From Alloacidobacterium dinghuense (lineage in GTDB: Bacteria; Acidobacteriota; Terriglobia; Terriglobales; Acidobacteriaceae): a stretch of DNA of 64,000 bases. Under the pieces are notes generated by a model, which saw only the letters and a program-made list of their open reading frames with translations, ran no database searches and was not told the DNA's origin. Positions 33,312 to 34,746 of this stretch are shown here, piece by piece. The stretch covers positions 3,720,001-3,784,000 of the forward strand of contig NZ_CP060394.1 of assembly GCF_014274465.1 (NCBI RefSeq), written 5' to 3'. Both the position numbers and the translations under genes were made by a program. Position 1 is the stretch's first letter. The number at the start of each line of letters is the position of its first letter.

Positions 33312-33440
33312 GTTGTCTCCCTTCGGCAACCTCCTATGTTACTCGAATGCTGTGGATGCAAATGCGAGTCGGGATTCGGGCGCGTCTGACATGCTTGCCT
33401 GCGGCAGCAAGGTACGCCGTCTCTCGACGGCTGCCTATTC

Positions 33441-33485
33441 AGAGGGCTAAAGCCCTCTGCTTCTACCTTGAGGTGCTTTGCACCT
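33441..33485. repeat. Two-hairpin intergenic palindrome (GGGCTAAAGCCC type), copy 1
   Basis: A perfect 18-bp palindrome AGAGGGCT-AA-AGCCCTCT (33441-33458), a linker GCTTCTACCTT and a second hairpin AGGTGC-TTT-GCACCT (33471-33485). A third small hairpin GCCGTC-TCTC-GACGGC lies just upstream at 33416-33431. The same architecture, with different but still paired stems, recurs at 34706-34746. Confidence 0.65.
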
Positions 33486-33605
33486 CTTTCTGTTTTCTTC
33501 TGCTCTGGTTTTTTGAGCTGTGGCTCTCTGTCTATATCGCTGGTATTGCCTCACGAAACATCGTTGAGATTCTTCCTCCCGTTGGTCGTCAGAATGACGG
33601 CTCAA

Positions 33606-34406
33606 CTAGAGCTGTGGGCTTGGCAGCCATGGGCCTGCGTCAGTAAGGCGCGTCATCGCGTGGCAGCGGTTTTTATTCAGGCTAAACCTCTCTGCTTTCA
33701 CAGTGAGGTGGCTGAATGCATGACAGTCTCTTCGGCAACGTGAGGTCGGTCTTGCCGAAGGCATTTCGGCGACGGCGTGGATTGTGATTCCTCTTTGCGA
33801 AGACAGCGCGTCGGAGTTCCCGGCTTGCGGTAGGTTGTTGTTGGCTGATTCAGCTCCTGCTTCTTGTTGTCCGGCTCGTTCTCGTTCCGCTTTGAGCCTG
33901 GCCTCTTCTGCTTTGCGGGCGCTCAGTTCTTCGGCTTGACGGAGAAGGATTTCGCCGAGGCTGGGTGGGCGTTTTCTGGCGGCGGCTTCTTCCGGTTCGG
34001 GGCTCTGCTTTTCCGGGCCGATCAGGGTGCCGTCTGCGTGCTCATGGGCTTCGCGGACCGTTTGCTCGATAGTTGCTTCCTTCACGGCCATGGCGGCGCG
34101 GTGGCGGTTGTTCTGCGAGGCTACCTGCAGTCCGTAGATGAGGATGCGGGCGCGGCGTGAGTCGATGCGGTTGGCGGCTAAGGCCAGGACCACGTCAGAT
34201 ATGGCGAGTTGGATGGCGTCGGCGTCTTCGAGTGGCGAGAGGTTGAGGGCGGTTTCTTTGGGTTCGGTGTAGGGCTCATAGGGTTGGTTCTGGGGTGATG
34301 GGCGGCGGCGGGACTTGTGGTGGAAGTAGCAGAAGTCCTCGGCCTTGAGGGCGGGTGACTGGCACTTTTTCCCGCTGGTGAAGATGTGTCGGCACTCGTT
34401 GTACAT
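33606..34406 (-). CDS. Hypothetical protein with N-terminal Cys/His motif, acidobacterial type
   Basis: 266 aa. The first 35 residues hold a probable zinc site, CRHIFTSGKKCQSPALKAED, followed by FCYFHHKSRRR. A helical region follows (DADAIQLAISDVVLALAANR, DSRRARILIYGLQVASQN), then a Glu/Lys/Arg-rich coiled coil (LRQAEELSARKAEEARLKAERERA). This layout recurs in uncharacterised proteins of Acidobacteriota. GGGGGA precedes the ATG by 9 nt. The last ~55 residues look foreign: they run through sequence resembling the intergenic palindromes (a degenerate copy near 33670-33710). The natural C-terminus may therefore have been lost or extended by repeat insertion. Function unknown. Confidence 0.65.
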   Translation of the reverse strand: MYNECRHIFTSGKKCQSPALKAEDFCYFHHKSRRRPSPQNQPYEPYTEPKETALNLSPLEDADAIQLAISDVVLALAANRIDSRRARILIYGLQVASQNNRHRAAMAVKEATIEQTVREAHEHADGTLIGPEKQSPEPEEAAARKRPPSLGEILLRQAEELSARKAEEARLKAERERAGQQEAGAESANNNLPQAGNSDALSSQRGITIHAVAEMPSARPTSRCRRDCHAFSHLTVKAERFSLNKNRCHAMTRLTDAGPWLPSPQL

Positions 34407-34705
34407 TGGGTTTGGTCCCCCTATATTTTTTGTAAATTCTTCTTTTTGCTGGTGGTTAGAGGCTTATATATACGGTGCGCGCTATGCGCGGTCTTTTTAG
34501 ACCCACCCCTTCGGCTCCGCTCAGGGCAGGCTCTGTCTCCTCGAACATCGCGAGGAGACAGGATGGGGCACCCGGTTCTTGCCTGGTTGTGGCTTGTGGC
34601 TTCCCCCGTATGTTTTCGCTAAATTCTTCAGATGGTTTGGGTTAGGGCTCGCGTGAGGCGGTGGAAAACCCGGGGCTAAAGCCCCTTTGACTGCAAGTTT
34701 TGTTT

Positions 34706-34746
34706 CACCGGGCTAAAGCCCGGTGCTTCTACCCTGCGCTTCGCGC
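34706..34746. repeat. Two-hairpin intergenic palindrome, copy 2
   Basis: CACCGGGCT-AA-AGCCCGGTG (34706-34725, perfect 20-bp palindrome), the same linker GCTTCTACC, then GCGC-TTC-GCGC (34736-34746). Stem flanks differ from copy 1 but pairing is kept. Confidence 0.65.

Follow-up and report, generated by a model that had tools for sequence, protein, structure and literature searches.

The window analyzed here, a stretch of 64,000 nucleotides (C1:3720001-3784000) in the 6.27 Mb single-contig genome (C1) of Alloacidobacterium dinghuense, contains two short intergenic repeats, which an earlier note had described as a palindrome, a linker and a hairpin each and had read as REP elements spread by RAYT-type transposases. 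This raises the question of what kind of element these repeats are and which enzyme could have spread them. The described layout was confirmed by direct reading of the sequence. Its palindromic 12-mer, GGGCTAAAGCCC, occurs three times in the window and 54 times exactly in the genome. When up to one mismatch was allowed, the same three sites were found in the window, all of them exact, with 0.22 expected and three or more in none of 100 shuffles; the reversed control of the 12-mer gave 0 and 1 genome-wide hits on the two strands.

The repeat unit is about 70 bases long and consists of a near-constant inner hairpin (hp1), a spacer, a variable outer hairpin (hp2) and a tag. The window holds one A-type and one D-type unit, both on the plus strand, both with the tag CTTCTACC and each followed by an extra hairpin. 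The A-type unit (34666-34735) scores 78.1 bits against the covariance model R1 (E 1e-23 in the window) and is among the training sequences of this model. Its inner hairpin GGGGC-TAAA-GCCCC (34672-34685) is the third palindrome of the earlier note; this palindrome exists, but it is not a separate element, so that the second copy becomes a 70-base two-hairpin unit. The outer hairpin CACCGGGC-TAAA-GCCCGGTG (in full CACCGGGCTAAAGCCCGGTG, 34706-34725, read directly from the sequence) is followed by the tag at 34726-34733, which reads GGTAGAAG on the opposite strand, and by the extra hairpin GCGC-TTC-GCGC (34736-34746).

The D-type unit (33395-33469) scores 45.0 bits and lies outside the training set of R1. 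The hairpins first described for this copy were found as claimed, but the unit begins further upstream, at 33395, with upstream hairpins in place of the usual hp1. One of these, GCCGTC-TCTC-GACGGC (33416-33431), covaries among the D copies. It is followed by the outer hairpin CAGAGGGC-TAAA-GCCCTCTG (in full CAGAGGGCTAAAGCCCTCTG, 33440-33459), the tag (33460-33467, read directly) and a downstream hairpin GAGGTGC-TTT-GCACCTC (33470-33486) of a form common to D copies. The GC-rich downstream hairpin is thus present in both window copies as stated earlier, but in the family it is an extra of many copies and not part of the core: a stem of at least 6 lies within 36 nt downstream of 41 of 104 genome matches, compared with 1.7% of positions drawn at random from these loci, a control which may be too low because random positions are mostly coding. 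Folded as DNA, both window stretches are more stable than their dinucleotide shuffles, whichever strand is taken (z -5.9 and -5.3; -3.2 and -2.7). A probable decayed copy (TTATTCAGGCTAAACCTCTCTGCTTTCAC, 33673-33701, plus strand) was recognised by eye and is absent from the R1 matches. A search of the window against Rfam at the gathering score returned two tRNAs only, and the repeats match no curated family.

The two units lie on either side of a multicopy gene (33606-34406, minus strand) without a Pfam match, a large part of which is matched at eight other places of the genome with 74-92% identity. The aligned copies of this gene carry different mosaics of short repeats upstream. About 26 bases at 34510-34535 (CCTTCGGCTCCGCTCAGGGCAGGCT) have no counterpart in five of the six paralogues aligned, and a further paralogue (L058) has a similar stretch; these bases could be a small insertion. 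Another repeat at 33558-33605 (CATCGTTGAGATTCTTCC...CAGAATGACGG) has at least 26 further matches in the genome and is unrelated to the hairpin units.

In the alignment of the 54 copies of the 12-mer most were found to sit in a larger unit comprising hp1 (GGGGCTRAAGCCCC), a pyrimidine-rich spacer, hp2 with a variable stem, and the tag. Five subtypes were distinguished. Subtype A has the stem CACCGG..CCGGTG and the tag CTTCTACC or CTTTCACC, and subtype B the stem GCGGGGC..GCCCCGC, the tag CTTTCACC and a third hairpin. Subtype C1 carries the stem GCGAGGGC.. with the tag CTACC, and subtype C2 the stem GGCACGGC.. with the tag CCTTCAAA. In subtype D, which reaches about 95 bases, hp1 is replaced by the upstream hairpins CTGCGGCAG and GCCGTC..GACGGC, followed by hp2, CTTCTACC and GAGGTGC..GCACCTC. 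The subfamilies comprise 50 (A), 19 (D), 17 (B), 10 (C2) and 8 (C1) units; these sizes come from rough regular expressions, with A collecting the units left over, and some units are in the wrong subfamily. A B-type unit with a third hairpin such as GTCCTGCTTCGCAGGAC recurs in tandem about every 170 bp at two loci (C1:3999574-3999985, L034; C1:83889-84126, L001). A left-end GTRG tag, to which the A copy of the window (GGTGGAAAACCC) had pointed, was tried as a further feature and failed in 40 A units.

Further copies, as the earlier note expected, are abundant, with stems that vary and mostly keep their pairing. At E 0.01 or better, model R1 matches the genome at least 104 times, with one place counted twice because both of its strands match; scoring covered 150 of 1483 first-look candidates, and more copies are possible. 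The matches are mostly extragenic, since only 12 of the 104 lie largely inside called genes, whereas 61% of positions drawn at random from the same loci do so (gene calls from an ad hoc, simple codon-bias caller). Units are found on both strands in the two halves of the contig (27+/25- and 20+/32-). Neighbouring units within 600 bp share their orientation in 19 of 22 pairs, an arrangement also attainable by tandem duplication. In 61 genomes searched with R1 at 1e-4, matches were found in 39, namely in 35 of 37 genomes of the same family (this genome included), in 1 of 14 of a second family of the order and in 3 of 10 from other parts of the class; with 82 candidates scored per genome, counts per genome are lower bounds.

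The paired differences between the outer stems, which had suggested selection on the folded form, proved real across the family. In 46 aligned units 95.5% of 598 stem cells pair, and both sides have changed in 10 of 13 pairs (85 cells), compared with 5.6 pairs and 23.2 cells in shuffles; the covariation is 0.409 compared with 0.095 in shuffled data. Sliding the partner by 1-3 columns lowers the pairing to 26-55%. Less striking is the number of further pair types (17 compared with 14.6, equalled in 40 of 500 shuffles). The 46 units were picked at 12-mer loci by near-match to four typical outer hairpins with at most 7 mismatches, and the pairing estimate is favoured by this selection for likeness. 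Covariation extends to three helices in nine D units, with 24 double-change cells compared with 9.0 in shuffles, although the further pair types are no better than shuffles; the downstream helix is the weakest of the three, with 85.7% of cells paired.

As to the transposase, the suggested search for a RAYT gene yielded two Y1 transposase genes in this genome, at C1:2956 kb and C1:4649 kb. Both pass the cut-off of the NCBIfam model REP_Tyr_transpos (NF047646) with 107 and 99 bits against 80. The first (C1:2956134-2956523) has an inverted C2 unit on each side, and its reading frame (L047, 1964-2548, minus strand) continues through the downstream two-hairpin unit, which adds the tail ...GLKPRAIDEAHGTAEAVPLQR. 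The second has a different terminal repeat, a single hairpin ending in GGGGCACCC. A single-hairpin repeat in the window at 34533-34573, ending in GATGGGGCACCC, resembles the terminal repeats of the clade of this second RAYT, many members of which are surrounded by such endings. The residues H52, H54, Y110, N114 and P115 are invariant in all 26 aligned RAYTs, which thus carry the HUH motif and Y---NP.

The association with the units is specific to one clade of RAYTs. When 91 RAYT loci were split by protein score into 45 nearest the C1:2956 kb gene and 46 nearest the C1:4649 kb gene, a correctly oriented unit was found within 250 nt of 39 of the 45 (34 on both sides) and of none of the 46 (Fisher p 1e-19, a statistic that ignores relatedness). 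At six of the 45 no unit was detected, and wrongly oriented units were found on four left and six right sides. On the tree, 37 of the 40 RAYTs in the C1:2956 kb clade are flanked, as are 2 of 9 in an adjacent divergent group, but none of the 42 in the C1:4649 kb clade, four low-scoring members of the 46 falling across the division; the label flanked changes 5 times, compared with about 29.5 times when shuffled. Within the flanked clade the distance from unit to RAYT is close and often constant. In a named set, the best 80 of 309 confirmed loci, 61 are flanked by units on each side, 17 on a single side and 2 on neither, which makes 78 of 80 flanked, with wrong orientation on three left and six right sides. 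This set samples the flanked clade, because its query alignment was built from 26 flanked RAYTs, and may have genomes in common with the 91-locus set. All of the best 80 of the 309 loci belong to Acidobacteriota, mostly to Acidobacteriaceae, Acidobacteriales, Acidobacteria or Terriglobia.

The two ends of each RAYT locus provide an internal comparison and with it a less circular test of the stems, in which a perfect stem was taken in one flanking unit and the same places were read in the opposite flank. Of 81 pairs 73 were usable (30 of 34 and 43 of 47 in the two sets). Pooled, they gave 36 compensated double changes (14 and 22), 7 one-sided breaks (1 and 6), 1 one-sided G-T (0 and 1), 2 unpaired doubles (0 and 2), 518 unchanged cells and 1 gap. 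Compensated changes therefore account for 36 of 46 changed cells between true flanks, compared with 52 of 123 when partners were shuffled between loci, where 46 one-sided breaks, 12 one-sided G-T and 13 unpaired doubles were counted. Between left and right flanks the tag is 0.93 and 0.90 identical and the spacer 0.43 and 0.45; with shuffled partners the tag falls to 0.64, and the spacer identity of 0.43 is at the level of the true flanks. Across loci (66 of 69) Mantel tests relate RAYT similarity to the tag (r 0.47, p 0.0005), weakly to the stem (r 0.11, p 0.013) and not clearly to the spacer (r 0.05, p 0.05).

Since the fold is kept and the units bracket a transposase gene in related bacteria, the repeats are most likely tiny hitch-hiking mobile elements. 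We consider it very probable that they are non-autonomous, RAYT-associated elements of the REP kind, in which terminal inverted repeats of RAYT loci occur as solitary copies. The RAYT, an HUH single-strand endonuclease, would bind the unit as folded single-stranded DNA, read the tag, cut and rejoin the unit; solitary units would be copied or moved by it in trans. For TnpAREP, binding of folded single-stranded REP through tag and hairpin has been described, with different weights in different models (PMC8266576). A clean empty site for the two-hairpin unit was not found, either upstream of UbiD in congeners or among within-genome paralogues: the stretch upstream of the UbiD gene and its orthologues is not syntenic in congeners, and the paralogous copies of the multicopy gene nearby form mosaics of several repeat families, among which no clean pair was seen.

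The same structures could act at the level of RNA, the hairpins being kept to end or stabilise transcripts. The extragenic placement of the units would agree with this, and hp1 with its T-rich spacer resembles an intrinsic terminator, at least five T being found among the 8 nt after hp1 in 40 of 55 A and B units. However, in the cases with called genes on both sides and in the same orientation, these run against the unit in 32 cases and with it in 14 (binomial p 0.011), so that for such genes the T-run is mostly on the wrong strand. G-U pairs are infrequent, with 7 of 571 standard-pair cells in the 46 units and 1 between flanks, which points to DNA more than to RNA as the folded form; in other REPs GT pairing is reported as frequent by the 2013 survey (PMC3733652). 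As the RAYT association is also left unexplained, a function in RNA is considered unlikely.

Even less probable is a passive, transposase-free spread through segmental duplication and gene conversion between intergenic repeats. It would account for the A copies at 34666 of the window, C1:902508 and C1:1809238, which lie within longer duplicated stretches, and for the B copies in tandem arrays, but most A copies are alike in the unit only, conservation fading within about 10 nt of hp1 in the A units that could be anchored (40 of 50), and the restriction of inverted flanks to one RAYT clade would have no explanation. About equally improbable is that the flanked RAYT is an ordinary autonomous transposon from which the units derive as MITE-like deletion products. 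RAYTs with inverted ends at similar spacing do occur in many genomes, relatives have up to 13 RAYT matches, and one genome (G030) carries a pair of close flanked copies (L134 and L143) separated by about 2.3 kb. Against this, the solitary copies are single ends (only 3 of 22 neighbouring pairs lie on opposite strands, one being the RAYT's own pair and two a single place matched on both strands), and RAYTs within one genome are mostly divergent from each other.

A RAYT with the window tag was not found in this genome, where the sole unit-flanked RAYT of the two detected bears the tag CCTTCAAA. In two congeners RAYTs were found (L064 in G003, L066 in G002) which are flanked by A units CATCGGCC/CACCGGCC ending in CTTCTACC. 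Because the matching tag accompanies a RAYT in these two congeners and none was found here, the window copies are probably left over from an earlier expansion. The A and D copies of this genome look orphaned, and it is possible that the RAYT with C2 units acts on them in trans.

The most unusual feature of the finding is a small insert nested in the loops of the outer hairpins. This gene-less, REP-like element of 41-43 nt (ATCACCCC-hairpin-GGGGACCCCGAT) has six strict-pattern copies in the genome, with none for the reversed control on both strands. All six sit in hp2 loops, four in A hosts and two in D hosts, with different stems. Five of the hosts are among the units matched by R1, and the sixth (C1:5846260) was assigned to the D units from visual inspection and from its 8-bp stem. 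For the insert at C1:3967179 an empty twin was found about 350 bp away (C1:3967526). The two places match without a difference for about 85 bases on the upstream side and 50 on the downstream side; the 43 additional bases lie within the TAAA loop, where their exact position is uncertain by one or two A. The loop placement is shared neither by two looser inserts in the genome (C1:1785033 and C1:6085471, with stems of 4 and 3) nor by most of the 13 copies in relatives: among these 13, three (L226, L229, L232) are flanked by stems of at least 6 and two by stems of 5, a stem of 6 being reached by 2.1% of random positions, and the insert L229 is nested in its own kind. The six strict inserts are 0.71-0.88 alike, their host flanks 0.36-0.66 and their outer flanks 0.38-0.45; a composite duplication rather than six insertions is possible. 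Tentatively, and with somewhat less than even confidence, the outer hairpins may be extruded in the living cell, so that their single-stranded loops would be a preferred landing site of the element, one REP-like family nesting in another. REPs inserted within palindromes are known for other bacteria (PMC3733652), and the insertion sequence ISRm22 enters REP palindromes at their axis (Tobes and Pareja 2006, PMC1525189). These cases share palindromes as insertion sites, whereas here a gene-less 41-43 nt element sits in the loop of another REP-like family. Since REPs within palindromes had already been reported in the 2013 survey, the loop nesting is an extension and no new category.

Among known systems the closest are RAYT-like transposases with long terminal inverted repeats (TIRYTs), which include a sharply defined Acidobacteria group (Di Nocera et al., 2013, PMC3733652); some of their TIRs are double palindromic, and some recur across the genome, as for K. 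versatilis ORF1552. In both cases a transposase lies between long inverted repeats that hold two palindromes, and the units are probably of the kind sketched in 2013 as double-palindromic TIRs, a likeness by description and not by letters. Of 26 TIRYTs, 20 were assigned to subclass 2.1, with a C-terminal helix-turn-helix (Quentin et al., PMC6006769); such a domain was not found in the flanked RAYT here, a Pfam scan of the two RAYTs of this genome at E 0.01 giving Y1_Tnp only. The class 3 TnpAY1 of the same study have Y----Q, a CnGA foot and atypical structures, with about 600 copies in Solibacter usitatus (PMC6006769). They share with the present family the occurrence in Acidobacteria and repeated secondary structures around a Y1 gene, and differ in the active-site motif, which is Y---NP here.

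The REP of a REPtron is a short extragenic hairpin with the tag 5′ of the stem that flanks a RAYT, and in the models of E. coli, Stenotrophomonas and Marinomonas both tag and hairpin matter for activity (PMC8266576). Flanking of a RAYT by repeats was also found here, both for the own RAYT and in the two locus sets, although the units are about 70-95 bases long with two or more hairpins. They are repeated extragenic palindromes, but exceed the REP length of 20-40 bp (PMC3733652). They also depart from the definition by a GT[AG]G tag 0-2 nt from the stem (PMC6006769): in the window copies the distance between GTAG and the stem is 3 nt, and the tags of the clade vary (TTGAAAG, GTATCAG, GTAGAAG and others), 46 of the 57 flank tags listed, out of 66, being without GT[AG]G. 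Alternative complementary stem residues between subfamilies are known for REPs generally (PMC3733652). With regard to the arrangement of the hairpins, a further comparison can be made. The REPIN of Bertels and Rainey, dating from 2011, reportedly consists of two hairpins forming one unit, as is the case here; it is an inverted pair of like REPs, however, whereas hp1 and hp2 differ in stem and tag, the inner-end GTRG is not conserved (40 A units) and neighbouring units are mostly co-oriented. REP candidate counts have been given for Granulicella aggregans and two other Acidobacteriota (PMC12306157). A fuller description of these repeats was not found in the literature on REPs, TIRYTs and Acidobacteria, most subscription journals being outside this coverage.

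Overall, the repeats are a real and well-supported member of the REP/RAYT systems in a two-hairpin form, and the earlier reading was right in essentials. Spread by a RAYT is supported by the clade-specific flanks, from which we infer mobilisation, but the unit differs from the classical short REP. The movement of REPs is poorly understood, and the recognition code has been mapped experimentally for three RAYT-REP pairs (PMC8266576). If the loop-nested inserts did arise by insertion, they would form a natural footprint left by the extrusion of hairpins from chromosomal DNA. The flanked RAYTs of Acidobacteriota offer natural RAYT-repeat pairs in large number, which separate the part read by the enzyme, seemingly the tag, from the part that mainly needs to fold, the stem.
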